Shown in pieces: positions 29,005 through 48,647 of a stretch of 64,000 nt of DNA. The notes under the pieces were generated by a model, which saw only the letters and a list, made by a program, of their open reading frames with translations, did not search any database and was not told the DNA's origin. Source of the DNA: Paraburkholderia sp. SOS3 (GTDB lineage: Bacteria > Pseudomonadota > Gammaproteobacteria > Burkholderiales > Burkholderiaceae); assembly GCF_001922345.1 (NCBI RefSeq), contig NZ_CP018811.1:2480001-2544000 (forward strand), in the 5' to 3' direction. The first letter of the stretch is position 1, and every line of letters begins with the position of its first letter. A program made the translations under genes and the position numbers.

Positions 29005-30048
29005 CTAGGCCAGTTCTTCGGTCACCACCGGCGTCTTCACCGGCGAGAGCTTGATGCCCTTGGCTAGCCGATGCGACGGCGCTTCGACCAGCAGATAAAA
29101 GATGTACGCGTAGACCAGCGTCAGGATCGCGGTGAATAGCCATCCTGAACGCGTGTATTCGTCGACCGCGGGCACGTAACGCTTCACGGCTTCGAGCACG
29201 CTCGGGTGGACCAGATACAGCGAGTAGCTGAATGCGCCGGCCGCCACGAGCAATGGCGAAGCGGCGCGGTTCTTGTGATAAGCGATCTCTGCGCGAATCC
29301 AGAAATACGCCACGCCGCCGACGTACATCATGCTGACGACTTTCGAAACACCCATATGAAACAGCAGGAATTCGCTGATCCACATCGTGAGCCACGCGCT
29401 GATGCGCCACGCCCAGATCGCCCACGTACTTGCCAACGGTTCTAATGCCGGCGCCTTTTCAGCGAGCATGCATCCGCTGATCCAGACGGGAAACAGGATC
29501 AACGCCGTTGCGATCGGACCGATGTCGGACCATTCAGCCGCGCGGCGAAATATATCGGAAAGCACGATGCTCGTCGCAATCGTGACGCCCATTACGGGCC
29601 ACCAGCCCACCTTGAAACGAATCACGCGAAGCGCCGGATAGACGGCGTAATAGATTTCCTCGCAGACGAGGCTCCACAGCATGCTTCTCCACAAAATCGA
29701 ATCGCTGCCGAAGATATGCATCTCAGGAAACAGATGCGACATCAGCGTAACGGTGACCACGACCGGCGCGAGCACGCGGATATAGCGCCGCAGGTAAAAC
29801 TTCAGGATTGGAATTTTGCCGGGCCGCCGGAATGGCGAGTGAATACAAAAACCCGATATCACGAAAAATGCCATGACCGCTGGTAAACCCCATATCAGCG
29901 AATGGATGAATCGATCCATCGAGTGAATCGCGCCGGCCGCGCCGATCGCCTGCTTGCCGAAGATCGGGAAATGGCCCAGGTGCCCTATTGCGACCCATGA
30001 AGCGAGAACAAAGCGCAATGCATCAATTACTTCGTATCGGTTTTTCAT
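29005..30048 (-). CDS. Acyltransferase family 3 (OafA/YrhL-like) membrane protein
   Basis: A 347-residue inner-membrane O-acyltransferase with about ten hydrophobic helices. Family signs are YEVIDALRFVLASWVAIGHLG with the catalytic-type His, FFVISGF, FYLRRYIRVLAP and SLVCEEIYYAVYP. Such enzymes acetylate surface sugars (O antigen, exopolysaccharide or capsule). The start at 30048 gives the standard N-terminus; in-frame starts 4 and 9 codons upstream are possible. No polysaccharide genes lie beside it, so the substrate cannot be named. Confidence 0.87.
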   Translation of the reverse strand: MKNRYEVIDALRFVLASWVAIGHLGHFPIFGKQAIGAAGAIHSMDRFIHSLIWGLPAVMAFFVISGFCIHSPFRRPGKIPILKFYLRRYIRVLAPVVVTVTLMSHLFPEMHIFGSDSILWRSMLWSLVCEEIYYAVYPALRVIRFKVGWWPVMGVTIATSIVLSDIFRRAAEWSDIGPIATALILFPVWISGCMLAEKAPALEPLASTWAIWAWRISAWLTMWISEFLLFHMGVSKVVSMMYVGGVAYFWIRAEIAYHKNRAASPLLVAAGAFSYSLYLVHPSVLEAVKRYVPAVDEYTRSGWLFTAILTLVYAYIFYLLVEAPSHRLAKGIKLSPVKTPVVTEELA

Positions 30049-30476
30049 GCCAGTTCCCATATGAGTTCTTGGCACTACTGATGTGGCGCGTCAAATCATC
30101 AGACTAATCATTAACCTCGGCTCGAAACGGACTTCCTGAATCTCACTCGAACACTACAAAACCTGCCCGCTCAAAAAAAGAAAATTAAATGCCTTTAAAA
30201 AATCGATCGCCAGTTAACGATGCCGAATATCCGAATGGAATATGAATAGGCGTCTGGCGGAGTCGCCGCTTTAAAGAAGAACTTAAAAACCTTCATGGCA
30301 AAAAGGTGGATCGGAAGCGGACCCGCTCGCCGCCTTTTAACCAGACCTAGTTGGCGACGGCTCCAGCACGGGTGGCCGGGGCCCGTTCGGTCGGCGCAAG
30401 CGCGGGCGCTCGACAGCATGCGCCCCACCGAACCTCTCGCCTGCGCGCGCCCGTCGCATCGCCGCGTAGACGGTCA
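30049..30476. other. Intergenic region between the acyltransferase and the xsc promoter
   Basis: AT-rich near 30160-30300 (runs such as AAAAAAAGAAAATTAAAT), becoming GC-rich towards 30470. It should carry the acyltransferase promoter on the minus strand. No gene was recognised. Confidence 0.45.
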
Positions 30477-30507
30477 ATTTTTAGAGACAATACGTACCGT
30501 TTATTTT
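30477..30507 (+). promoter_or_regulatory. Conserved upstream element of the xsc promoter
   Basis: 31 bases ending in CGTACCGTTTATTTT, matched at 28 positions by 36380-36410 upstream of the IclR gene. It includes a GTAC-centred partial palindrome and ends 10 bases before the -35 box. This is the place expected for an activator site, or an operator shared by both promoters. Confidence 0.7.
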
Positions 30508-30517
30508 ACAAAACAGG

Positions 30518-30546
30518 TTGACGACGAAGTCCTCATGACCTACATT
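30518..30546 (+). promoter_or_regulatory. Sigma-70 promoter of xsc
   Basis: The -35 box TTGACG (30518-30523) and the -10 box TACATT (30541-30546) are 17 bases apart. Transcription should start near 30553, giving a leader of about 54 bases before the xsc ATG. Confidence 0.7.
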
Positions 30547-30567
30547 CGTCTCATGCACAAATATTCA

Positions 30568-30582
30568 GGAACATTTCGTTCC
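30568..30582 (+). promoter_or_regulatory. GGAAC-N5-GTTCC operator in the xsc leader
   Basis: The inverted repeat GGAACATTTCGTTCC lies about 15 bases after the predicted start of transcription. The same palindrome type is at 36469-36483. IclR-family regulators often bind such 15-base palindromes, so repression by one of the three IclR proteins in this region is likely. Confidence 0.65.
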
Positions 30583-30606
30583 ATTTAATGCAAGCACGGA
30601 GACACC

Positions 30607-32436
30607 ATGAGCGAACACGATCACGCGCATTCGAACCCCGGCACGGCCGCCGTCACCGGTCCGCAGGCGATGACGCCTTCCGAGGCCTTCGTTGAAACCC
30701 TCGCCGCCAACGGCGTGACGGACATGTTCGGCATCATGGGGTCCGCCTTCATGGATGCGATGGATATCTTCGCGCCCGCGGGCATCCGCCTCATTCCCGT
30801 GGTCCACGAACAGGGCGCGGGCCATATGGCAGATGGCTATTCGCGCGTGTCGGGGCGCCACGGCGTCGTGATCGGCCAGAACGGTCCGGGCATCAGCAAC
30901 TGCGTCACCGCGATCGCGGCCGCTTATTGGGCGCATAGTCCCGTCGTCGTCGTCACGCCCGAAGCGGGCACGATGGGCATCGGTCTCGGCGGCTTCCAGG
31001 AAGCCAGGCAGTTGCCGATGTTCCAGGAGTTCACCAAGTACCAGGGGCACGTCACGCACCCCGCTCGCATGGCCGAATTCACGGCGCGCTGTTTCGACCG
31101 CGCGATGTCCGAGATGGGACCGACGCAACTGAACATTCCGCGCGACTACTTCTACGGCCAGATCAAGGCCGAGATTCCGCAGCCGCAGCGTCTCGACCGC
31201 GGCGCCGGCGGCGACCAGCGCCTCAACGAGGCCGCCGATCTGATCGCGCAGGCGAAATTCCCCGTCATCATCTCGGGCGGCGGCGTCGTCATGGCCGATG
31301 CGATCGAAGAATGCAAAGCGCTGGCCGAACGGCTTGGCGCGCCCGTCGTCAACAGCTACCTGCACAACGACTCGTTCCCCGCGCGTCACCCGTTGTGGTG
31401 CGGCCCGCTCGGCTACCAGGGTTCGAAGGCGGCGATGAAACTGCTTGCGCAGGCCGACCTCGTCATTGCGCTCGGATCGCGTCTCGGGCCGTTCGGCACG
31501 CTGCCGCAGCACGGCCTCGAATACTGGCCGCAAAACGCGAAAATCATCCAGATCGACGCCGACCACAAAATGCTCGGCCTCGTCAAAAAGATTTCGGTCG
31601 GCATCTGCGGCGACGCAAAAGCGACGGCCGTCGCGCTGACCGAGCGCCTGAAGACGCGCACGCTGACCTGCGACGCGACGCGCGAAGCACGCGCGAGCCA
31701 GATCGCCGCCGAAAAGGCCGCGTGGGAAAAAGAGCTCGACGAGTGGACGCACGAGCGCGATCCGTTCAGCCTCGACATGATCGAGGAACAGAAAAAGGAA
31801 CGCACGCCGACCGGCGGCCAGTATCTGCATCCGCGCCAGGTGCTGCGCGAGCTCGAGAAAGCGATGCCCGAAGACGTGATGGTGTCGACCGACATCGGCA
31901 ACATCAATTCGATCGCCAACAGCTACCTGCGCTTCAACCGGCCGCGCAGCTTCTTCGCCGCGATGAGCTGGGGCAACTGCGGCTACGCGTTCCCGACCAT
32001 CATCGGCGCCAAGGTGGCGGCGCCGCACCGTCCCGCAGTTTCGTATGCGGGCGACGGCGCGTGGGGCATGAGCCTGATGGAGACGCTGACCTGCGTGCGC
32101 CACAACATCCCCGTCACCGCGGTCGTGTTCCATAACCGCCAGTGGGGCGCGGAAAAGAAGAATCAGGTCGACTTCTACAACCGGCGCTTCGTGGCAGGCG
32201 AACTCGACAGCCCGAGCTTCGCGGGCATCGCGAAGGCCATGGGCGCCGAAGGCATCGTCGTCGACAAGCTCGAGGACGTCGGCCCTGCGCTCAAGAAGGC
32301 GATCGACATGCAGATGAATCACGGCAAGACCACGATCGTCGAAATCATGTGCACGCGCGAACTCGGCGACCCGTTCCGCCGCGATGCGCTCTCGAAGCCC
32401 GTACGCCTGCTCGACAAGTACAAGGACTACGTCTGA
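30607..32436 (+). CDS. xsc: Sulfoacetaldehyde acetyltransferase
   Basis: A 609-residue thiamine-diphosphate enzyme. Xsc splits sulfoacetaldehyde with phosphate into sulfite and acetyl phosphate, the point where C2-sulfonate pathways meet. It matches the family closely: EAFVETLAANGVTDMFGIMGSAFMDAMDIF, the cofactor-activating Glu in VVHEQGAGHMADGYSRV, the cofactor-binding stretch from GDGAWGMSLMETL to NRQWGAEKKNQVDFY, and the C-terminal CTRELGDPFRRDAL. The short N-terminal His/Ser extension is variable. pta follows 132 bases downstream. The promoter region is shared in design with that of the nearby IclR gene. Confidence 0.96.
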   Translation: MSEHDHAHSNPGTAAVTGPQAMTPSEAFVETLAANGVTDMFGIMGSAFMDAMDIFAPAGIRLIPVVHEQGAGHMADGYSRVSGRHGVVIGQNGPGISNCVTAIAAAYWAHSPVVVVTPEAGTMGIGLGGFQEARQLPMFQEFTKYQGHVTHPARMAEFTARCFDRAMSEMGPTQLNIPRDYFYGQIKAEIPQPQRLDRGAGGDQRLNEAADLIAQAKFPVIISGGGVVMADAIEECKALAERLGAPVVNSYLHNDSFPARHPLWCGPLGYQGSKAAMKLLAQADLVIALGSRLGPFGTLPQHGLEYWPQNAKIIQIDADHKMLGLVKKISVGICGDAKATAVALTERLKTRTLTCDATREARASQIAAEKAAWEKELDEWTHERDPFSLDMIEEQKKERTPTGGQYLHPRQVLRELEKAMPEDVMVSTDIGNINSIANSYLRFNRPRSFFAAMSWGNCGYAFPTIIGAKVAAPHRPAVSYAGDGAWGMSLMETLTCVRHNIPVTAVVFHNRQWGAEKKNQVDFYNRRFVAGELDSPSFAGIAKAMGAEGIVVDKLEDVGPALKKAIDMQMNHGKTTIVEIMCTRELGDPFRRDALSKPVRLLDKYKDYV

Positions 32437-32568
32437 GCCTCGTGGGACGAGCCCGGCATTTCCGGTCGCGAGCACGCCAGCCGCGCACGCCGGCAATGCC
32501 GTCTTGATCACGAAGAACCCGGGGACGGTCGCGAGACCGGACCCGAGGTCGAACCGCACCGCACAGCC

Positions 32569-33651
32569 ATGAAAGCGATCAACCGGATCATCGAGCAGGC
32601 GCGTGAGCACCCGATGCGCATCGTGATGTGCGAGAGCGGCGACGCGCGGATTCTGGAGGCCGCGCAACGCGCGACCGTGGCGGGTATTGCGCGCATCGTG
32701 CTGGTCGGCGAACCGGACAGCACGCGGCGTGCGGCGCAACGTGCGAACGTCGATCTGAGCGGCATCGACATCGTGGACCCGGCCACGTCCGCGCTCACGC
32801 GCGCCTGCGCCGACGAACTGTTCGCACTGCGCAGCAGGAAGGGCATGACGCGCGAGCAGGCGCAGCAAGAGGTGCTGCAGCCGCTGTGCTTTGCGAACCT
32901 CATGGTACGGCTCGGTCACGCCGACGGATCGATCGCCGGCGCGGTCAACACGACAGCGGATGTCGTGCGCACGGCGATCCAGCTGATCGGCATCCGCCCG
33001 TCGTTCAAGCTCGTCTCGAGCTTCTTTCTGATGATGTTGTGCGAGCCGTTCCACACGATGAAGGGCGGGCTGATTTTTTCCGACTGCGCGCTCGTCGTCG
33101 ATCCGGATGCGGAGCAGTTGTCCGAGATCGCGATGGCCGCGGCCGACAGCGCGCGCAGTCTGCTGATGGAAGAGCCGCGCGTGGCGATGCTGTCGTTTTC
33201 CACCAGCGGCAGCGCGAAGCATGCAGCCGTCGACAAGGTCGTTGCGGCGACGCGCCTCGTGCAGGCCGCACGACCGGGCCTCGCGATCGACGGCGACGTG
33301 CAGCTCGATGCGGCGATCGTCGCCGAAATCGCGCTGCGCAAGGTGCATCACTCGCAAGTCGAAGGTCATGCGAACACGCTGATTTTTCCGAGTCTCGATG
33401 CGGGCAATATCGGCTACAAGCTCGCCGAACGGATCGGCGGCGCGAAGGCGATCGGCCCGCTGCTGCAAGGTCTGCAGAAGCCCGCCAACGATTTATCGCG
33501 GGGCTGCAGCGCCGACGACATCTTCTATGTGATCGCGGTGACCTGCGTGCAGGCTCAGGCCGCCGCCGGTTTGCCGATCCAGCGCACTACTTCCGAGCAC
33601 AGCGCCATATCGGGCGCGACAGACAGATCGACAGCGAGCGAATACCGGTAG
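32569..33651 (+). CDS. pta: Phosphate acetyltransferase
   Basis: A 360-residue short-type Pta (PTA_PTB domain only). It turns acetyl phosphate from Xsc into acetyl-CoA. Family motifs are RIVMCESGDARILEAA, GSIAGAVNTTADVVRTAIQLIG, GLIFSDCALVVDPDAEQLSEIA, MLSFSTSGSAKH and NTLIFPSLDAGNIGYKLAERIGGAKAIGPLLQGL. The C-terminal ~25 residues (from about PIQRTTSEHS) are extra and overlap the opposite-strand VWA gene by 97 bases. It is typical for pta to follow xsc in sulfonate-degrading bacteria. Confidence 0.95.
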   Translation: MKAINRIIEQAREHPMRIVMCESGDARILEAAQRATVAGIARIVLVGEPDSTRRAAQRANVDLSGIDIVDPATSALTRACADELFALRSRKGMTREQAQQEVLQPLCFANLMVRLGHADGSIAGAVNTTADVVRTAIQLIGIRPSFKLVSSFFLMMLCEPFHTMKGGLIFSDCALVVDPDAEQLSEIAMAAADSARSLLMEEPRVAMLSFSTSGSAKHAAVDKVVAATRLVQAARPGLAIDGDVQLDAAIVAEIALRKVHHSQVEGHANTLIFPSLDAGNIGYKLAERIGGAKAIGPLLQGLQKPANDLSRGCSADDIFYVIAVTCVQAQAAAGLPIQRTTSEHSAISGATDRSTASEYR

Positions 33652-35339
33652 TACGGGCTCAGATCGAGCCCGACGCCGAGACCGAGCACATCGACGTCGC
33701 CATACGCGCGCTGCTCGGCGACCACCTGCTTCAGATGGTTGTCGAGGTAGTACGCATCGTTCGCGTGATGCGTCGCGGCATCCATCGGACTGCCATCCGA
33801 AATGACGATCAGCACCCGGCGATTCGCCGCATGCGCGCGCATTCTGTCGCATGCCCATTCGACCGCCTCCCCGTCCACGCCTTCGCGGAACAGGTCGCCT
33901 TTGAGCAACGCGGCGATATCGGCGCGCGCACGCCGCCAGCTCGTGTCGGCGTCCTTGAAAACGAGATTCAACACCTCGTTGAGCCGTCCCGGATGTTCGG
34001 GGCGCCCGTGCGCAAGCCAGTCGGAGCGCGCACGACCGCCGTTCCACGCGCCGGTCGTAAAACCGAGAATTTCGTTGGCGATACCCGCGCCGTCGAGCGC
34101 GCGCGCCAGCACGTCGACCAGCATCGCCACGGGCTCGATCCGCGCTCTCATCGAACCCGAGCAATCGATCAGAAAGCCGACGATCGATCCGGAGATCGGC
34201 GTGTGCCGCTCGAGGCGAAACAAACGCCGCTCGGCCGGCGAACTGACCAGTTGCGCAAGCCGCCGGCCATCGATGCGCCCGCTTTCCTCGCCGAACGACC
34301 AGTCGTCGCGTTCCGGCACGGCAAGCGCCGCCTTCAGCATACGCGCGAGCCTTGCGACATTGATCGGCTGCGCGCGGATCCGTTCGTCGAGACGCTCGCG
34401 ATATTCGGCCAGCAGCGCCTTGCGGACGAAGCTCGCCGCATAGGCCTCGCGATCGTAGCGGTTCGTGAACACGCGATAGCCGTGCTCCGACGCGCGCAAC
34501 ACCCTGCTCTCGCCCGTATCGGCAAGCGCGATGCCCTCGTCGTCGCCGTCTTCGAATTCGAGAAACAGCGAAAACGCGTTTCGCGTTGCCTCTTCTTTCT
34601 GCCGGTTCTGCGTGTCGTCGTCGTCAAGTCCGGCGGCGGCGCGTTGCGCGTCCATCACCGCGCTCACCTGCCGCGCAAGTTCGAGCGCGTGCACCGCGAA
34701 GGCCTGTTGATCGTGACGCGTGCGGCGCATGTTCGCGAGCGGCACGCCGATCACGGGCGCGACAAACGCACGGGTCGCCTCGATCAGCCCTTCCGTTTCC
34801 TCGAGCACCGGCCAGCCCGACAGCCGCGACCAGCACATTTGCGCGACGGTATAGAGCAGCAAGCCCGCCTCGCCATCGATCAGGCCCGACAGATGGACGC
34901 CATGCGACCATGTGTCGAAACGCACGCGCAGATTGCGCGCAAGGCCCGGCATGCCCGGCGGCAACAACGATTCGCAGCGCAACTGTTCGAGCGATTCGAA
35001 AAGCAGCCGTTCGACCGCATCGACAGGCATGTGCTGCCTATGCCATTCGGTATCCGAATGAAGCGCGCGCAACGCGGCGCCATCGGCTGCGCCGCGGAGG
35101 GACGCAACTGAAGACCCAACTGAAGAAGCAGTTGAAGACGCAACTGAAGACGCCGCCGCCTGCTCATCGCGTGTGATCCGCAAATGCGGCGCATGAAACG
35201 GCAACGGCGTCATATTCCGGCATAGCCGGCCACCGCTGTAGTGCAAGGCCGCATCGCCGGTAATCGCGCGCACGGTGGTCGCGCGCAATGCGTCCGCGCG
35301 CGCGGCGCGCTGCAAGGCGGCGCGTTCGGGCTCGCTCAT
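33555..35339 (-). CDS. CobT-like VWA-domain protein, partner of the MoxR ATPase
   Basis: A 594-residue cytoplasmic protein. The C-terminal third is a von Willebrand A domain with the metal-binding motif DCSGSM (Asp392) and VLIVISDGSP. The middle resembles the CobT subunit of cobaltochelatase (acidic GLDDDDTQNRQKEEATRNAFSLFLEFEDGDDEG). Between residues 55 and 80 is a low-complexity Ala/Ser/Val stretch. Its start overlaps the ATPase stop (ATGA), so the two are translated together. No cobalamin genes are near, so it more likely remodels or activates an enzyme of the sulfonate pathway; this is inference. Confidence 0.8.
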   Translation of the reverse strand: MSEPERAALQRAARADALRATTVRAITGDAALHYSGGRLCRNMTPLPFHAPHLRITRDEQAAASSVASSTASSVGSSVASLRGAADGAALRALHSDTEWHRQHMPVDAVERLLFESLEQLRCESLLPPGMPGLARNLRVRFDTWSHGVHLSGLIDGEAGLLLYTVAQMCWSRLSGWPVLEETEGLIEATRAFVAPVIGVPLANMRRTRHDQQAFAVHALELARQVSAVMDAQRAAAGLDDDDTQNRQKEEATRNAFSLFLEFEDGDDEGIALADTGESRVLRASEHGYRVFTNRYDREAYAASFVRKALLAEYRERLDERIRAQPINVARLARMLKAALAVPERDDWSFGEESGRIDGRRLAQLVSSPAERRLFRLERHTPISGSIVGFLIDCSGSMRARIEPVAMLVDVLARALDGAGIANEILGFTTGAWNGGRARSDWLAHGRPEHPGRLNEVLNLVFKDADTSWRRARADIAALLKGDLFREGVDGEAVEWACDRMRAHAANRRVLIVISDGSPMDAATHHANDAYYLDNHLKQVVAEQRAYGDVDVLGLGVGLDLSPYYRYSLAVDLSVAPDMALCSEVVRWIGKPAAA

Positions 35340-36325
35340 CGCGTTTCCAGCGGGAGCGCGCCGGCGCCTTCGAACGATGCAAGCTCCGCATCGAACGCGC
35401 GCTGAAAATACTCCGCGACGATCGGCCGCTCCGCTTCGTCGCATTTATTGAGGAACGTGAGGCAAAACGCGAGCCCCGCGTCGCGAAAGATGCCGATATT
35501 CTCGGCCCAGTTGATCACCGTTCTCGGCGACATCAGCGTCGACAGATCGCCGGTCGCGAAACCTTTGCGCGTGAGTTCGGCCACGCTCACCATCGATTCG
35601 ACGAGCGCGCGGCTACGCTCGTCGGCCAGTGCCGGCACGCGCGCCAATACGATGCGAATCTCGTCGTTGCGCGACAGGTAATCGAGGTTGGCCACGACAT
35701 TCCAGCGGTCGAGCTGCGCATGATTGAGCGCCTGCGTGCCGTGATAAAGGCCGTTCAGGTTGCCGAGTCCTACCGTGTTTGCGGTGGCGAACAGCCGGAA
35801 CGACGGGTGCGGATGAATCACGCGGTTCTGATCGAGCAGCGTGAATTTGCCGTCCGTTTCGAGAATGCGCTGGATCACGAACATCACGTCGGGGCGCCCG
35901 GCATCGTATTCGTCGAAGACGAGCGCAACGGGGCGCTGCAGCGCCCACGGCACGATGCCCTCCTGAAATTCGGTTACCTGGGCGCCGTCGCGCACGACGA
36001 TCGCGTCCTTGCCGACCAGGTCGAGCCGGCTGATATGCCCATCGAGATTGATGCGCACGCACGGCCAGTTCAGGCGCGCCGCGACCTGCTCGATATGCGA
36101 CGACTTTCCGGTGCCGTGCAGGCCCTGAACCATGACGCGCCGGTTGCACATAAAGCCGGCAAGAATCGCCAGCGTGACTTGCGGGTTGAACAGGTAGACG
36201 TCGTCGATTTCGGGCACGTGGTCGTCCCGCTCGCTGAAAGCGGGCACCTTCAGATCAACGTCGATGCCGAATACGCTGCGCGCATCGACGATGCGGTCCG
36301 GCTTGCCGGTCTCGATCTCGGTCAC
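35336..36325 (-). CDS. MoxR-family AAA+ ATPase (CobS/CbbQ/NorQ-like)
   Basis: A 329-residue ATPase. Walker A is at residues 68-75 (GLHGTGKS), Walker B at 134-140 (ALVFDEYD), and the sensor region has LFATANT. The N-terminus (PEIDDVYLFNPQVTLAILAGF) and RINLDGHISRLDLVGKDAIV are close to CobS of cobaltochelatase. Such ATPases work with a VWA partner to load metal into or activate enzymes; the partner is the next gene, overlapping by 4 bases. A divergent promoter at 36365-36393 drives the pair, opposite the IclR gene. Confidence 0.87.
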   Translation of the reverse strand: MTEIETGKPDRIVDARSVFGIDVDLKVPAFSERDDHVPEIDDVYLFNPQVTLAILAGFMCNRRVMVQGLHGTGKSSHIEQVAARLNWPCVRINLDGHISRLDLVGKDAIVVRDGAQVTEFQEGIVPWALQRPVALVFDEYDAGRPDVMFVIQRILETDGKFTLLDQNRVIHPHPSFRLFATANTVGLGNLNGLYHGTQALNHAQLDRWNVVANLDYLSRNDEIRIVLARVPALADERSRALVESMVSVAELTRKGFATGDLSTLMSPRTVINWAENIGIFRDAGLAFCLTFLNKCDEAERPIVAEYFQRAFDAELASFEGAGALPLETR

Positions 36326-36364
36326 ATCGCTCTCCTCACACGTTCCATTCGGCCGCCTGAGGAC

Positions 36365-36393
36365 ATCATAAACCGATTCATTTTTAGATACAA
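36365..36393 (-). promoter_or_regulatory. Promoter of the MoxR-VWA operon
   Basis: On the minus strand, -35 TTGTAT (36393-36388) and -10 TATGAT (36370-36365) are 17 bases apart. The -35 box lies inside the 31-base conserved element, so a protein bound there should affect both divergent promoters. Confidence 0.6.
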
Positions 36394-36410
36394 ATCGTAC
36401 CGTTTATTTT
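36380..36410 (+). promoter_or_regulatory. Conserved element, second copy
   Basis: 31 bases that match the element upstream of xsc (30477-30507) at 28 positions, including the 15 identical bases CGTACCGTTTATTTT. It sits between the divergent moxR and iclR promoters. Confidence 0.7.
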
Positions 36411-36419
36411 TATATAGAA

Positions 36420-36448
36420 TTGACCACGACCGATTGGTGGCCTACATT
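36420..36448 (+). promoter_or_regulatory. Sigma-70 promoter of the IclR gene
   Basis: The -35 box TTGACC (36420-36425) and -10 box TACATT (36443-36448) are 17 bases apart, the same design as the xsc promoter. Transcription should start near 36455. Confidence 0.68.
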
Positions 36449-36468
36449 TGAACCATATCCTACTGCTG

Positions 36469-36483
36469 GGAACAAATTGTTCC
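36469..36483 (+). promoter_or_regulatory. Perfect palindrome GGAACAAATTGTTCC, likely IclR operator
   Basis: Seven-base arms around a central A, about 14 bases after the predicted start of transcription of the IclR gene. It equals the xsc operator in its outer five bases on each side. Its place suggests autorepression. Confidence 0.7.
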
Positions 36484-36527: not shown

Positions 36528-37484
36528 GTGTCATCGATCGATTCCACCGCACACGCAGCACCGCCGGCAGCACCGGCAAGCGACGCACGCGCCGCCGACG
36601 GCACGCGTTCCGAAAAGCGCAGCGGCGCCGTGCCGCCGATCGCCGGCGCGCAGCCGGGCGACCACTGCGCTGCACGGCACGCCAAGGCATTTCAGTACAA
36701 TACGGCCGATCCATTTTCCGGAACGGCGGACATGAACAAGGCGGATACCCCGACACTGCGCGCGTTTTCGCTGCTCGAACATCTGATCGCGGCGAACGGC
36801 CCGGTTTCGCTTGCCGATATCGCTCACGACATCGACCTGCCGAAGGCTTCGCTGCACCGCATGCTGGCATCGCTCGAAGCAGGCGGCCTCGTGATTCGCG
36901 AGCCGGGGCAAAAGAACACGTACGTGATCGGCCCGCGCCTGTCGCAACTCGGGCTTGGCGTGATGATGCACTCGGGCGCGCGGCGTCTGCGTCACGCGAT
37001 TCTCGGGCGGCTCGTGGCGGACCTCGGCGAGACCTGCAACCTGACCATGCTCCACGAGACGGAGGTGCTGTATCTCGACCGGATGGAAGCGCCCTGGCCG
37101 TTGCGTCTCGATCTGAAGCCCGGTTCGCACGTGCCGGCCTACTGCAGCGCAAGCGGCAAGCTGCTGCTCGCGATGCTGCCGCGCGACGAGCGTGCGGCGC
37201 TGATTCGCGCGATGCACTTTCATCGCTTCACGGCGAACACGCTGACTGACCCGCAACTGCTCGAAAGCGAACTCGATCGCATCGCGCACAAAGGCATCGC
37301 CGTCGACAACGAGGAATTCGTAATCGGCATTGCATGCGTGGCTGCGCCCGTTATCGACGAGCAGGGCCAATGCATCGCCGCGGTCGCCGTGCACGCGCCC
37401 GTGTCGCGCACGCCGCTGCCGCGCGCGCTCGAATTCGTGCCGCGCCTGCAGGAAGCGGCCAAAGAACTGGCTGCGACGTTCTGA
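36528..37484 (+). CDS. IclR-family regulator, probable controller of xsc and of the MoxR-VWA pair
   Basis: The conserved IclR core begins at the ATG at 36732 (250 residues): winged helix LRAFSLLEHLIAANGPVSLADIAHDIDLPKASLHRML, then the effector domain with GETCNLTMLHETEVLYLDRMEA, GSHVPAYCSASGKLLLA and GIAVDNEEFVIGIACVAAPV. However, the GTG at 36528 has a strong GGGAGGG 8 bases upstream and lies 73 bases from the predicted transcript start. It would add 68 Ala/Pro-rich residues (318 total). I annotate the GTG; the ATG remains possible. Two operators and a duplicated promoter module link this gene to xsc. Confidence 0.88.
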   Translation: MSSIDSTAHAAPPAAPASDARAADGTRSEKRSGAVPPIAGAQPGDHCAARHAKAFQYNTADPFSGTADMNKADTPTLRAFSLLEHLIAANGPVSLADIAHDIDLPKASLHRMLASLEAGGLVIREPGQKNTYVIGPRLSQLGLGVMMHSGARRLRHAILGRLVADLGETCNLTMLHETEVLYLDRMEAPWPLRLDLKPGSHVPAYCSASGKLLLAMLPRDERAALIRAMHFHRFTANTLTDPQLLESELDRIAHKGIAVDNEEFVIGIACVAAPVIDEQGQCIAAVAVHAPVSRTPLPRALEFVPRLQEAAKELAATF

Positions 37485-37669: not shown

Positions 37670-38602
37670 GTGAGCGTTACCCATTCGTCGTCGTCACATT
37701 CCGCCGGCGCACAGCCGCACGTCGCCAACGTCACGTTTCTCGGGCTCGGCGTCATGGGCTACCCGATGGCCGGACATCTCGCGAAAGCCGGCCTCAACGT
37801 CACCGTCTACAACCGCACTGCGAAGAAAGCGCAGCAATGGGTGTCCGAATATGGCGGACGTGCGGCCGCGACGCCGCGCGAAGCGGTGCAAGGCGCGGAC
37901 CTCGTGCTGTCGTGCGTCGGAAACGACAACGACCTGCGCAGCATCATGCTCGGCGACGACGGCGCCTATGCCGGCATGACCAAAGACGCGGTGTTCGTCG
38001 ATCACACGACCGCGTCGGCCGACGTCGCGCGCGAACTCGCCGCGCGCGCCTCCGAACAGGGCCTGCACTTTATCGACGCGCCCGTCTCGGGCGGCGAAGC
38101 CGGCGCGCAGAACGGCACGCTGACCATCATGTGCGGCGGCCAAACGCAGGCATTCGAGCGCGCCGCGGACACGCTGCGGCATTACGCATCGGCCGTCACG
38201 CTGCTCGGGCCGGCCGGTTCGGGTCAGCTTGCCAAGATGGTCAACCAGATCTGCATCGCGGGCATGGTGCAAGGCCTGTCCGAAGCACTGCATTTCGGCC
38301 AGCGTGCGGGCCTCGACATGGCGCGCGTGCTCGAAGTGATCGGCAAAGGCGCGGCCGCCAGCTGGCAGATGAGCAACCGCGGCACCACGATGCTCGACGG
38401 CAAGTTCGATTTCGGCTTCGCGGTCGACTGGATGCGCAAGGATCTCGGCATCTGTCTCGATGAAGCGAAGCGCAACGGCGCGTCGCTACCGGTTACCGCA
38501 CTCGTCGACCAGTTCTACGGCGATGTGCAAGCGCTCGGCGGCAACCGCTACGATACGTCGAGCCTGATCTGGCGTTTGCGCAAGGTGAATCCCGCGCGCT
38601 AG
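37670..38602 (+). CDS. Beta-hydroxyacid dehydrogenase (3-hydroxyisobutyrate dehydrogenase family)
   Basis: A 310-residue NAD(P)-linked dehydrogenase. It has the N-terminal FLGLGVMGYPMAGHLAKAG fold with NRT after the second strand (suggesting NADP), the substrate motif FIDAPVSGGEAGAQNGTL and the catalytic segment GSGQLAKMVNQ with its Lys. Relatives reduce tartronate semialdehyde, succinate semialdehyde or sulfolactaldehyde. In this setting reduction of sulfoacetaldehyde or a related sulfonate aldehyde is a fair guess, not shown. The GTG at 37670 follows AAGGAG. It lies 185 bases after the IclR gene on the same strand. Confidence 0.85.
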   Translation: MSVTHSSSSHSAGAQPHVANVTFLGLGVMGYPMAGHLAKAGLNVTVYNRTAKKAQQWVSEYGGRAAATPREAVQGADLVLSCVGNDNDLRSIMLGDDGAYAGMTKDAVFVDHTTASADVARELAARASEQGLHFIDAPVSGGEAGAQNGTLTIMCGGQTQAFERAADTLRHYASAVTLLGPAGSGQLAKMVNQICIAGMVQGLSEALHFGQRAGLDMARVLEVIGKGAAASWQMSNRGTTMLDGKFDFGFAVDWMRKDLGICLDEAKRNGASLPVTALVDQFYGDVQALGGNRYDTSSLIWRLRKVNPAR

Positions 38603-40189: not shown

Positions 40190-41920
40190 TCAGCTCTGCG
40201 ACTGCAACAACTTCAACCGCTGTACCTTGCCGGACGGCCCGCGCGGCAGCTCGGCGACGAAGCGGAATTCCTTCGGCGTCTTGTACCGGCCCAGTTCGCG
40301 CAGGCAATGCGCGCGCAGATCGGCAACGTCGACGCCTCCACATCCGTTCGTCTGCGCCTCGCCATCCGTCGCGCGCGGCACGATATACGCCACGATCTCC
40401 TGCCCGTACGCGCTATCGGGCACGCCCACCGCAGCCGCGTCGAGCACGCCCGGGTGCTTCAGCAGCGCCTCGTCGATTTCGCGCGGGGCGATGTTCTCGC
40501 CGCCCTTGATGATCAGTTCTTTCGCGCGGCCGTTGATGTAGAAATAGCCTTCCTCGTCGCGATACCCGAGGTCGCCGGTACGCAGCCAGCCGTCCGCCGT
40601 AAACGCAGCGACCGTTTCTTCCGGCCGCTTGTAGTAGCCGCGCATCACCTGCTCGCCGCGCAACACGATTTCGCCGCATTCGTGCGGCGCGCACTCGCGG
40701 CCTTCGCGGTCGATCACCTTCGCTTCGGCGCCCGACGGCAATCCGATGCTGCCGACCTTGCGCCGCGCCGCGTCATACGGATTGCTGAAGATCGGCGCAG
40801 CCGTTTCCGTCATGCCCATTGTTTCGATGATACCGATGCCGAAGCGCGCTTCGAACGCGCGATGATGTTCGGCCGGCAGAGCGGCGGACGCGCTGCGGCA
40901 AAACTTCAACGCCGACAGATCGAACGCGCACCCCTCGTCGCAATTGAGCAGATAGGCGACGATGGTCGGCACGACGTTGATCCATGTGCAGCCGTGGAAT
41001 GCCGCATCGCGCCAGAACGTGCGCGCCGAGAAGCGTGGCGTCATCACGACCGAGCCCGCATGAAACAGCGGCGTCAACAGCGTCACGACGAGACCGTTGA
41101 TGTGATAAAGCGGCAATGAGGCGAGCACGCGGTCGTCGTCGGCCAGCCGATGTTCGCCGGTGATGCGCGCCGCGTTCGCGAGCAGGTTGCGATGCGTGAG
41201 CAGCACGCCTTTGGGCAGGCCGGTCGTGCCCGACGTGTACATCAGAAGCGCCACGTCGGTTTCGCACGGCTCGCCATGAAGCGCGAGCGGCGTCTCGCTC
41301 ATCGTCGCGGCAAGCGCCTCCTCGTCTCGCGATGCCGCGGCGCGCCGCGCTTCCGCGCGCTGCGCTTCCGCGCGCTGCGTCACGGCTCCCGCTAGCGCAG
41401 GCTCGGCATGCGGCAGCACCGGCAGCGCCCGTGCGTCCGGTTCCGTCTCGATCACGAGCACATCGCGCACGAGCTTTTTCCCCTGAGATTCCGTGTGCGA
41501 CTCCGCCAGCGCCGATTCGATCGTCGCGCGCGTCTGCCTCTCGACGAAAATCGCGCGCGTATCCGAATGCTCGACGATATAGCGCAGCTGCGACGGCTGG
41601 CACAGCAGATTGAGCGGATTCGCGACGAGCCCGCTATACATCGCGGCAAGCAGAATCCGGCCCGTCTGGATGCCGTTGCTCATCAACACCGATACGGTGT
41701 CGCCGGGCCGCAACCCCGCGTCGAGAAAACGCGCTTCCAGTTCGCGGCAGTCGTTGCGCAGCTCGGCATACGTCAATGCAGCCAGCGCGGCGGCACGGCG
41801 GGTGCCGCCGCCGGCAGACTGAGCCTCCGGTTCACCCATCGATTCGAGCAGAAACGGTTTGTCCGGATATTGCGCGGCGCGCTCGTCGATCAGCGCGCGA
41901 AGCGTAACAGGCGTGCTCAT
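40190..41920 (-). CDS. sauT: AMP-forming acyl-CoA ligase, probable sulfoacetate-CoA ligase
   Basis: A 576-residue adenylate-forming enzyme. The ATP-binding motif is YTSGTTGLPKG, followed by ASLPLYHINGL, the adenylate-binding ETMGMTETA, the hinge GWLRTGDLGYRDEEGYFYINGRAKELIIKGGENI and a C-terminal catalytic Lys in PSGKVQRL. It would activate sulfoacetate to sulfoacetyl-CoA for reduction by the next enzyme. An Ala/Arg/Glu-rich insert lies near residues 175-210. Its ATG overlaps the sauS stop (ATGA), so sauS-sauT are translationally coupled. Substrate inferred from neighbours. Confidence 0.82.
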   Translation of the reverse strand: MSTPVTLRALIDERAAQYPDKPFLLESMGEPEAQSAGGGTRRAAALAALTYAELRNDCRELEARFLDAGLRPGDTVSVLMSNGIQTGRILLAAMYSGLVANPLNLLCQPSQLRYIVEHSDTRAIFVERQTRATIESALAESHTESQGKKLVRDVLVIETEPDARALPVLPHAEPALAGAVTQRAEAQRAEARRAAASRDEEALAATMSETPLALHGEPCETDVALLMYTSGTTGLPKGVLLTHRNLLANAARITGEHRLADDDRVLASLPLYHINGLVVTLLTPLFHAGSVVMTPRFSARTFWRDAAFHGCTWINVVPTIVAYLLNCDEGCAFDLSALKFCRSASAALPAEHHRAFEARFGIGIIETMGMTETAAPIFSNPYDAARRKVGSIGLPSGAEAKVIDREGRECAPHECGEIVLRGEQVMRGYYKRPEETVAAFTADGWLRTGDLGYRDEEGYFYINGRAKELIIKGGENIAPREIDEALLKHPGVLDAAAVGVPDSAYGQEIVAYIVPRATDGEAQTNGCGGVDVADLRAHCLRELGRYKTPKEFRFVAELPRGPSGKVQRLKLLQSQS

Positions 41921-43392
41921 CGTCCGGCCCTCCGGAAAAATTCGCCGAGCAGGTCGTCCGCATCGGGCACGTGCTCTTCGATCGGATACGCCACGCGCGT
42001 GATGTTCAGGTACTGGTGGAAATTCAGGTTAGTGGAGAAGTTGTTGCGTCCCCACGTGCCGCAGCCCATCGACAGCGAGAACGGCAGGCCGTTATCGAAG
42101 TTGCCGCCTGTTGCGAGGCAATGCGCCTGGTTGACGATCACGCGCGCCACCGGCAAGGTCTCGCCGAGTTCAACGGCCCGCGCGGGATCGGCCGCATCGA
42201 GGCCCGCATCGAGGCCCGTATGCAGACCCACCGAATGGCCCGCGCCCATATACGAATAGATGTCGCCGACAATCCCGGCCGCATGTTCGAAGTCGCGCGC
42301 GCGATACACGGTCAGCACCGGTGCGAGCTTTTCGCCCGAGAACGGATAGCGTTCGCCGAAGCCGGTTTCCTTCACCATCAGGAACGCGGGCCCGCGCTCG
42401 GCAATCTCGTCGAGGCCCGCGACGCGCGCGATGACCGCGGCCGAACGCGCCGTGCATTGCGGCGAAAGCTTGCCGTCGCGCCACATCGCGGACTGCAATC
42501 TGGCCTTCTGTTCGTTGTCGAGCAGCACGCCTCCGCATGCGGCGAGTGCATCGAGCATCGGCTGATACACGGCGTCTTCGATCACGACGCTGTTTTCCGA
42601 CGAACAGCTGGTCGCGTTATCGAAGGTCTTGGAAAGCGCGATCTTGCGCGCCGCCTCGTGCAAATCGGCCGAAGCCGTGACGATCGACGCGACATTGCCC
42701 GCGCCCACCCCGAACGCCGGCGTGCCGCTCGCGTATGCCATGCGTACGTTGGCCTGCGAGCCCGTCGCCACGACAAGGTCGGCCTGCCGCATCAATTCGG
42801 CCGTAGCCGCCTTGCTGATCGGCGCGGGCAGCATTTGCACGAGATCGGGCGAAAGGCTGGCCTTCGCGAGTTGCGCGTGAATGAAACCGATCAGCAGCGC
42901 GCACGACGAATAGCCCTTCGGCGAAGGCGCGACGATTACCGCATTGCCGCATTTGAGCGCGTTGACGATCTTGTTCGCGGGCGTCGCGGCCGGATTCGTC
43001 GAAGGCGTGATCGCGGCGACCACGCCAACCGCGCGTGCGATTTCAACAATGCCGTTTGCTGCATCGCGTGCGATGACGCCCGTGGTTTTCTGGCCGTGCA
43101 GATCGCGCAGCAGGCCGAGCGTCTTGCGATAGTTCTTGCGGAACTTGTCGTCGACATTGCCAAGGCCCGTGTCCCTCACCGACAGCTCGGCGAGTTGCCG
43201 GTTGCGCGCCGGCTCCATGATGGCCCATGCGGCGGCGGCGGCGGCCATGTCGAGCGCCGCCTGCCCCGCCCGCTCGAATTCGCGTTGCGCGACGCGAGCC
43301 CGGCCGACCAGCGCGGCGACATCGTCCGCGACGCTACTGTCCGTGCTTGCCCCCTGCGCGCCCACTTCGGCGTGACTTGCCCTCACATTCAT
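41917..43392 (-). CDS. sauS: CoA-acylating aldehyde dehydrogenase, probable sulfoacetaldehyde dehydrogenase
   Basis: A 491-residue enzyme of the EutE/AdhE type. It has VVAAITPSTNPAATPANKIVNALKCGNAVIVAPSPKG, GSQANVRMAYASGTPAFGVGAGNV and the catalytic Cys263 in KTFDNATSCSSENS, then ATGGNFDNGLPFSLSMGCGTWG. CoA-acylating dehydrogenases interconvert acyl-CoA and aldehyde; here sulfoacetyl-CoA would be reduced to sulfoacetaldehyde for Xsc. The ATG at 43392 has GGAGA upstream. It is the first gene of the sauSTU operon and is divergent from sauR across a palindrome-rich region. Confidence 0.85.
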   Translation of the reverse strand: MNVRASHAEVGAQGASTDSSVADDVAALVGRARVAQREFERAGQAALDMAAAAAAWAIMEPARNRQLAELSVRDTGLGNVDDKFRKNYRKTLGLLRDLHGQKTTGVIARDAANGIVEIARAVGVVAAITPSTNPAATPANKIVNALKCGNAVIVAPSPKGYSSCALLIGFIHAQLAKASLSPDLVQMLPAPISKAATAELMRQADLVVATGSQANVRMAYASGTPAFGVGAGNVASIVTASADLHEAARKIALSKTFDNATSCSSENSVVIEDAVYQPMLDALAACGGVLLDNEQKARLQSAMWRDGKLSPQCTARSAAVIARVAGLDEIAERGPAFLMVKETGFGERYPFSGEKLAPVLTVYRARDFEHAAGIVGDIYSYMGAGHSVGLHTGLDAGLDAADPARAVELGETLPVARVIVNQAHCLATGGNFDNGLPFSLSMGCGTWGRNNFSTNLNFHQYLNITRVAYPIEEHVPDADDLLGEFFRRAGR

Positions 43393-43461
43393 CTGATTGT
43401 CTCCAACGGTTATGTCTGTTCGTGCGAATAAATCTAGCGGGCGCGAAGACCGACGAAGTCC

Positions 43462-43538
43462 CGTTTTCCGCGGCTTTCCGTGCTGGGCGATGCAGTGAAT
43501 CGGAAAACGCGAAATTCGGGACTTTCCGGAGTCCCGAA
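43462..43538. promoter_or_regulatory. Inverted-repeat operators between sauS and sauR
   Basis: Two perfect inverted repeats lie in the divergent promoter region. TTCGGGACT/AGTCCCGAA (43515-43523 and 43530-43538) has a 6-base spacer. CGTTTTCCG/CGGAAAACG (43462-43470 and 43501-43509) is 30 bases apart. They are the likely SauR binding sites. They differ from the GGAAC palindromes near xsc. Confidence 0.65.
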
Positions 43539-43619
43539 AACCGTGCATTCCGATGCAAAATCACTTCTATAAATTTGACGACGGCGCGCGGTTGCAGCGA
43601 CGCGTCCGGAGGAGACTCG

Positions 43620-47586: not shown

Positions 47587-47712
47587 TACATGTGTCTCCT
47601 GCTTCTTATCGTTCGACCTGGTGGTTCAACGGTCTTAAAAAGCGGTATGTTTCGTTTGAATTTATTGAGCTAGCGAGACCGCCGCAACCTCTTTCACCGG
47701 CAAAGGCACCAA

Positions 47713-47798: not shown

Positions 47799-48647
47799 AT
47801 GAGAGATTCGATCCAATCCGCGCGCATCGACTGTCTGTCGGATAACACACGCGTGCTGCGCGCGCTTGCCGTGCTCGAAGAGCTGGCCGCGGCGGGCCAG
47901 CCGTTCTCGCTGTCGCAACTGTCCGCGCGGCTGCATATTCCGAAAGCGACGCTGATGCGGCTCATCGAGTCGCTCGAACAGCAGGGCTATGTCACGCACA
48001 TGCCGGATTCGCGCGGTGCCGACCGCGCGATCGCGCTCGGCCCCCGCGCCGCACAACTCGCGCTCACCACACTCGCGAACAATACGTTCACGCGCGCCTG
48101 CCGTTCGCTGCTGCGCACGCTCGTCGATTCGCTTGGCGAAACCTGCAATCTCACCGCGCTCGACGGCGACACCGTGCTCTATATCGAACGTGTCGAGACC
48201 ACCGAACCGCTGCGTCTGCAGATGCAGCCGGGCACGCGCGTGCCGCTGCATTGCACGGCGAGCGGCAAGCTGTTCCTGTCGCAGATGCCGCCGTCCGAAC
48301 GCCGGCTCGTGCTGTCGCGCCTCACGCTCAAGCGCATGACGTATCGCACGCTGACCGACACGACCCTGCTCGAAGCGGAACTGGACCGCCTGGCGGCGCG
48401 CGGCATCGGCATCGACAACGAAGAATTCGTCAGGGGGATGGTGGCGGTTGCCGTGCCTGTCAAAGATGCGGGGAACGGTCACGTACTCGCGTCGCTGGCG
48501 ATTCACGCGCCGACCGCGCGCGCCAATCTCAACGATCTGCTCGCGACTGTGCCGAGACTCAAGGAAACGGCACAAGCGCTTGCGCCGCTACTGCAGCATG
48601 GGGAAACGCTGCCGGGCCGCGGCGTACGCGAAGCCAACGCACGATAA
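47799..48647 (+). CDS. iseR: IclR-family regulator, probable isethionate regulator
   Basis: A 282-residue IclR protein: winged helix TRVLRALAVLEELAAAGQPFSLSQLSARLHIPKATLMRL, then effector domain with GETCNLTALDGDTVLYIERVETTEPLRLQMQPGTRVPLHCTASGKLFLSQM and GIGIDNEEFVRGMVAVAVPV. The ATG at 47799 has AGGAA upstream; a start 18 codons earlier is less likely. It is divergent from the IseJ-like gene, the usual position of the isethionate regulator. It might also influence the oxalate operon that follows on the same strand. Confidence 0.78.
   Translation: MRDSIQSARIDCLSDNTRVLRALAVLEELAAAGQPFSLSQLSARLHIPKATLMRLIESLEQQGYVTHMPDSRGADRAIALGPRAAQLALTTLANNTFTRACRSLLRTLVDSLGETCNLTALDGDTVLYIERVETTEPLRLQMQPGTRVPLHCTASGKLFLSQMPPSERRLVLSRLTLKRMTYRTLTDTTLLEAELDRLAARGIGIDNEEFVRGMVAVAVPVKDAGNGHVLASLAIHAPTARANLNDLLATVPRLKETAQALAPLLQHGETLPGRGVREANAR

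Follow-up and report, generated by a model that had tools for sequence, protein, structure and literature searches.

The window analysed here is a 64,000-nucleotide stretch of Paraburkholderia sp. SOS3 (contig NZ_CP018811.1, positions 2,480,001 to 2,544,000, forward strand), whose 7.5-Mb genome lies in three contigs. Two of its genes, xsc and a regulator gene of the IclR family (iclR), are preceded by the same promoter module, in which sequence comparison places a promoter between two copies of one operator, referred to below as O1 (upstream) and O2 (downstream). The genes next to the module are:

30607..32436, forward strand: xsc, sulfoacetaldehyde acetyltransferase (NCBIfam TIGR03457, 1077 bits against a cut-off of 676)
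32569..33651, forward strand: pta-type phosphate acetyltransferase (NCBIfam TIGR00651, over the cut-off; found 3' of xsc in many related loci)
33555..35444, reverse strand: VWA partner, CobT-like (Pfam CobT and CobT_C; the true start may be internal)
35336..36325, reverse strand: MoxR-type AAA protein, CobS-like (Pfam CobS_N and AAA_5)
36528..37484, forward strand: IclR-A, IclR-family regulator and candidate binder (Pfam PF09339 and PF01614, over the cut-off)

A preliminary description of this DNA reported that three parts recur before xsc and iclR, namely a 31-base element, a core promoter and a palindrome, and direct reading of the sequence bears this out:

30484..30498, forward strand: O1 of xsc, GAGAC-AATAC-GTACC, core of the 31-base element, centred at about -62 (third-best distinct matrix site of the window)
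30518..30546, forward strand: predicted xsc core promoter, TTGACG-N17-TACATT (from the sequence; a single TTGAC lies 48-51 nucleotides before O2 in 75 of 128 related promoters)
30568..30582, forward strand: O2 of xsc, GGAACATTTCGTTCC, centred at about +23, 24 nucleotides 5' of the start codon (from sequence, matrix and conservation)
36387..36401, forward strand: O1 between the cobS-like gene and iclR, GATAC-AAATC-GTACC, centred at about -61 for iclR (second-best distinct matrix site of the window)
36420..36448, forward strand: predicted iclR core promoter, TTGACC-N17-TACATT (from the sequence)
36469..36483, forward strand: O2 of iclR, GGAACAAATTGTTCC, centred at about +22 (from sequence and matrix)

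The two 31-base elements (30477-30507 and 36380-36410) are identical at 28 of 31 positions. The gap from element to -35 hexamer is 10 bases at xsc and 9 at iclR, and that from -10 hexamer to palindrome 21 and 20 bases; each gap thus differs by one base, the maximum previously claimed, and the cores of the binding sites consequently lie 84 base pairs apart at xsc and 82 at iclR. Elsewhere the two regions show low identity: 8/31 in the flank upstream of the element, 3/9 ahead of the -35 hexamer and 3/20 between the -10 hexamer and the palindrome; the promoter spacer reaches 9/17 and the stretch after the palindrome 11/24. Most of the surrounding sequence has therefore diverged, whereas the parts have been retained, in agreement with the earlier argument that neutral DNA would not have preserved them.

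In the window, two places have direct pairs of 31-mers matching at 28 or more positions, namely the module and the coding regions of two IclR paralogues (44020/48235); three simulated windows have none. The combination of promoter and palindrome is found only at these two promoters in the entire genome, and a strict pattern joining the end of the element to the promoter in only one of the 398 genomes of our family sample, the source genome itself (relatives have diverged forms). The bare palindrome is not rare, with six places in the genome, equal to the backward control, and is therefore not significant genome-wide when taken alone; the case is made by position, pairing and conservation. A mobile or repeated element was considered and rejected after a search of the whole genome with an extended operator pattern (up to three mismatches), in which three of the module's four sites turned up with 0-1 mismatch, alongside four hits scattered over the genome with 3 mismatches; the backward control gave four.

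The relationship between element and palindrome was evaluated with a matrix derived from 60 exact O2 sites found in other species, the window being excluded. Among distinct sites of the window it ranks O2 of xsc (37.6), O1 of iclR (20.1), O1 of xsc (19.4) and O2 of iclR (16.3) highest; next come a site within coding sequence at 37823 (7.8) and one in the gap before the gene of a further paralogue, IclR-3 (7.6). Maxima in ten simulated windows ranged from -0.1 to 16.7, one of the ten exceeding the fourth module site. As the element is found by a matrix of O2 sites only, we conclude from the sequence that it contains a further copy of the operator in degraded form (O1, GA[GT]AC-N5-GTACC, for O2, GGAAC-N5-GTTCC). 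Element and palindrome had previously been regarded as different signals, a view that we replace by two copies of one operator. The predicted order of the module is then operator-promoter-operator, with O1 at about -61 and O2 at about +22.

When sought before xsc in relatives, as the preliminary description had proposed, the module proved to be conserved in related species, in diverged forms. Twenty-five of the 53 related xsc genes in the compared loci (Caballeronia, Trinickia, Cupriavidus and one Paraburkholderia) have an exact GGAAC-N5-GTTCC upstream, mostly 20-40 nucleotides before the start, and 17, all from Pandoraea, have GGAAT-N5-GTTCC; best matches are weaker or displaced in the remaining 11, including five Paraburkholderia in which the upstream site matches better. 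Among 149 xsc upstream regions drawn from two sampling sets and including the window, O2 lies near the gene in 128. The best upstream matrix site is 80-84 base pairs from O2 in 94 of these 128 promoters (exactly 82 in 61), as compared with 180 of 2560 shuffled stretches (7%), and 86 of the 128 upstream sites score above the shuffled 95% level. In the family sample, the palindrome is present with 0-1 mismatch in 83 of 95 xsc upstreams. Such an exactly placed and conserved pair of operators provides a testable control model for the Xsc step in Burkholderiaceae.

Gene order in relatives (the closest IclR loci are from Paraburkholderia, 89% identity) suggests an origin for the iclR copy. In loci L008, L022, L034 and L043, cobS is followed by the module, xsc and iclR, and L008 and L022 possess two xsc copies with promoters identical from O1 on. 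As the iclR copy of the module sits where close relatives have xsc and then iclR, the iclR promoter of the window probably descends from a promoter of the xsc type that no longer has its xsc; this would imply loss of an xsc copy between cobS and iclR. The opposite order of events is possible, as Pandoraea also has cobS, O1 and iclR without an intervening xsc. In P. diazotrophica, P. piptadeniae and P. franconis, cobS is followed by O1, promoter, O2 and the start of xsc, and the iclR contig opens with the 3' end of xsc; in some draft assemblies the contigs end within xsc, which is what a duplicated gene would be expected to cause. One genome (G400) has two partial xsc 5' ends, and five further genomes searched gave no match at the set threshold. 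Duplication of xsc is seen in some Caballeronia and Paraburkholderia, and in two cases the copies are the same from O1 up to base 700 of the gene.

O1 also faces the divergent cobS gene:

36365..36393, reverse strand: predicted divergent cobS promoter, -35 TTGTAT (36393-36388), -10 TATGAT (36370-36365) (distance of the -10 hexamer from O1 kept)

In this promoter, TTGTAT-N17-TATGAT, the -35 hexamer falls within O1, so that binding at O1 should directly affect cobST. The hexamer ATSATA, which is the cobS -10 hexamer read backwards, lies 22-23 nucleotides before O1 in 31 of 47 gaps between cobS and iclR or xsc, and AGCATA or AGGATA stands there, by eye, in 13 of the other 16 (in two, the script took a wrong site as O1). 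A site above the gap's own shuffled 95% level was detected in all 32 cobS/iclR gaps (window included) and all nine cobS/xsc gaps. The earlier proposal of one regulator for xsc, iclR and the MoxR-VWA pair stands as far as a common signal is concerned, acting on the pair through O1; the protein encoded at 36528, which it named as the probable regulator, is a candidate for that role. The finding ties a MoxR-VWA pair without characterisation to sulfonate metabolism. As a side observation, such a CobS/CobT-like pair is found near xsc in 12 of 19 neighbourhoods containing xsc (some other regions end too early to show the pair), and in two 2-Mb genomes among those 12, cobS is directly divergent from xsc. 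The pair may be an Xsc helper rather than part of a cobalt chelatase.

The two-site architecture, its conservation, the common operator and the gene order can be read from comparison, and on that footing the module is a real and conserved regulatory unit, with a regulator probable. We favour, with moderate confidence, the reading that xsc and iclR are transcribed from sigma-70-type promoters placed between two copies of one IclR-family operator, most likely bound by IclR-A. To judge from the sequences, IclR-A is the likeliest candidate. A gene with IclR helix-turn-helix and C-terminal domains lies beside the sites, and in relatives the sites are conserved before the regulator gene itself as well as before genes of the pathway. 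The conserved part of the protein starts at 36732, and an NCBIfam profile search met no equivalog cut-off. IclR-A presence tracks xsc: in the family sample (orthologue threshold E ≤ 1e-75), xsc is present in 154 genomes and an IclR-A orthologue in 106, both genes in 99, xsc only in 55, IclR-A only in 7 and neither in 237 (hand tally). The examined set of 95 xsc upstreams covers 51 of the 55 genomes that lack IclR-A, together with 42 of the 99 that have both genes; these 42 supply 44 regions, 38 of which have the palindrome with 0-1 mismatch.

Several observations weigh against this reading. The palindrome is likewise kept, with 0-1 mismatch, before xsc in 45 of the 51 genomes without an IclR-A orthologue, and the xsc operator is exact in 25 of 25 such genomes of genus g3, although in these O1 has mostly lost its left half. 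The site is thus not confined to genomes with this regulator; another protein must bind the operator in those genomes, and the operator must be older or wider than the IclR-A orthologue. In ten g1 genomes without IclR-A, the match is the upstream site and O2 is degenerate. O1 itself is weak as a strict palindrome (15-mer score of about 0, versus about 24 for O2), its matrix score coming from the flanks and the right half, and O2 is weak (GGTATTTTTTGTTCC) in Paraburkholderia such as L016, L026 and L029. Among the 128 promoters, many belong to closely related species or to species that both sampling sets contain. The geometry departs from published IclR operators as well: the half-sites are 5 bases apart, one over the longest of the 3-4 base spacings of group 2, and the two sites lie 82 and 84 base pairs apart around the promoter, whereas published tandem sites are mainly 18-22 nucleotides apart, according to the available part of PMC8222616. 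Finally, a weaker related site before the IclR-3 gene leaves IclR-3 as the main rival. Decay of O2 was also tried as a link to IclR-A and rejected: with promoter classes and counts made by hand, O2 of one class is exact in 17 of 19 genomes with IclR-A (the 17 from one genus) and in none of 18 without, and g3 contradicts this pattern.

The features on which the rivalry with IclR-3 turns are:

47832..48584, forward strand: third IclR-family gene (IclR-3), rival binder (45-46% identity with IclR-A)
47636..47666, reverse strand: weaker candidate site in the GMC oxidoreductase/IclR-3 gap (score 7.6, the next intergenic site after the four of the module; within the simulated maxima)

Comparison of the helix-turn-helix regions of the three IclR paralogues of the window gives nearly equal distances (24, 24 and 22 of 60 columns), and a choice among the three therefore cannot be made on sequence alone. 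That IclR-3, or both paralogues, reads the operator, IclR-A being only a target or competitor, is unlikely in our estimation but deserves the most attention among the alternatives. IclR-3 occurs in 132 of the 398 genomes, many of which have xsc but no IclR-A (by hand, 7/7 in g25, 10/11 in g1 and 16/27 in g3), and the gmc/iclR-3 gap contains a related site, which exceeds the shuffled 95% level of the gap concerned in 34 of 36 cases and has a score >0 in 29 of 36. These sites vary, however, with GAAAC-N5-GTTTC in 11 of the 36, exact GGAAC-N5-GTTCC in 4 and less regular forms in others, and 11 of the 25 g3 genomes with an exact xsc operator reach the threshold for neither protein, so that IclR-3 alone does not explain g3. 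In the 300 nucleotides upstream, a score >0 is found for IclR-3 in 28 of 47 cases and for IclR-A in 45 of 82 (54 of 82 above the shuffled level); several loci have IclR-A directly 3' of another gene. For the negative control, sauS/IclR-2, only 3 of 24 score >0 over the same length, but 12 of 24 exceed the shuffled 95% level, which is therefore a loose threshold; in the window, no operator-type site above the shuffled level was found upstream of IclR-2, beside sauS.

The other alternatives concern the nature of the sites. Its A+T-rich composition upstream of the -35 hexamer and the poor strict palindrome of its 15-mer core would suit an UP element, or the site of an unrelated activator, but we regard this as improbable: a matrix trained on O2 alone locates the element 80-84 base pairs from O2, and O1 reads GATACAAATCGTTCC in sister species and GAAACAATTCGTTCC or GGAACAAATCATTTC elsewhere, all plain operator forms. 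Likeness through recent duplication of one promoter only is hardly credible, even though the two O1-promoter-O2-xsc copies in L008 and L022 show that copying occurs, since the high identity expected of spacers and flanks is not seen, window stretches outside the functional parts being mostly of low identity, and since the 5' part of the window xsc groups with Caballeronia catudaia/arvi and not with the cobS-adjacent xsc of nearer relatives (support 81/92 only). Published comparison places xsc and pta in TauR regulons (PMC5320631, as far as available), from which one could suppose that a MocR-type TauR controls xsc here, as in other proteobacteria, and that the palindromes serve something else. 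Conservation of the palindrome in those 83 of 95 family-sample upstreams makes this very improbable. CTGGAC, presumably part of a TauR site, is absent from 30001-30620, in a search that covered this one half-site.

Returning to the reading with IclR-A on both operators, we infer the binder, its ligand, the sign of control and any bridging as follows. One IclR-family protein would occupy O1 and O2, about eight helical turns apart, a distance that would permit bridging by a tetramer. Without a pathway signal, the protein at O2, a strong site within the first transcribed bases, possibly together with an O1-O2 bridge, would keep xsc and iclR low. The signal, which we would guess to be a C2-sulfonate intermediate such as sulfoacetaldehyde, would release O2, and the protein left at O1, a classical upstream activator position, might then aid RNA polymerase. 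By covering the cobS -35 hexamer, occupancy of O1 would shut off the CobS/CobT-like MoxR-VWA pair. Activation from O1 and repression from O2 would fit the positions -61 and +22. A fuller scheme, in which an xsc-dedicated IclR protein bridges the operators, represses at rest, activates on induction and occludes cobS, while the MoxR-VWA pair acts as a maturation or activating chaperone of Xsc, is doubtful as a whole.

The surroundings of the module (xsc, pta, the CobT/CobS-like VWA-MoxR pair, iclR, a hydroxyisobutyrate-type dehydrogenase, a transporter and an acyl-CoA ligase, and farther along sauS, a second IclR gene, another transporter, a GMC oxidoreductase and the third IclR gene) look like a C2-sulfonate cluster. 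The pta-type gene is probably in the xsc operon, and from their neighbourhood the ligase, transporters and GMC enzyme would have roles in the same pathway. The sauS gene (41917-43548; NCBIfam NF047625, over the cut-off) matches its family only from residue 75. Its annotated start is probably too early, in which case more than 72 nucleotides separate it from the second IclR gene. A different palindrome, GGGACT-TTCCGG-AGTCCC, was noticed by eye at 43518-43535, upstream of that gene; it is possibly an operator of the second IclR regulator.

The Xsc step converts sulfoacetaldehyde to acetyl phosphate and sulfite in taurine, isethionate and sulfoacetate breakdown (PMC5320631 among other sources, in part). 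Our search, which covered few subscription papers, found no paper on IclR control of xsc, and words starting with sulfo or taurine are absent from the main text of PMC8222616. Among known regulators of C2-sulfonate pathways, SauR of Cupriavidus necator H16, which responds to sulfoacetate, is reported to be involved in activation and is classed among activators or dual-function regulators (PMC7057948, available part), resembles the presumed module regulator in pathway role, but serves sulfoacetate genes, not xsc. Betaproteobacterial TauR regulons are mostly similar to alphaproteobacterial ones, and TauR is a MocR/GntR-type protein, while the module candidate is an IclR protein (PMC5320631, available part). 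The closest likeness in the operator itself is with IclR group 2: in the part of PMC8222616 at hand, published IclR motifs include GRAAC...GTTYC palindromes and group 2 operators are TGRAACA-N1-2-TGTTYCA. The module has these two half-sites, GRAAC and GTTYC, in the order given there, and its linked gene is likewise of the IclR family. As judged from its sequence, the module is partly new in geometry and target, and it extends a regulator family known mostly from closely spaced tandem sites by an arrangement in which two sites straddle the promoter.

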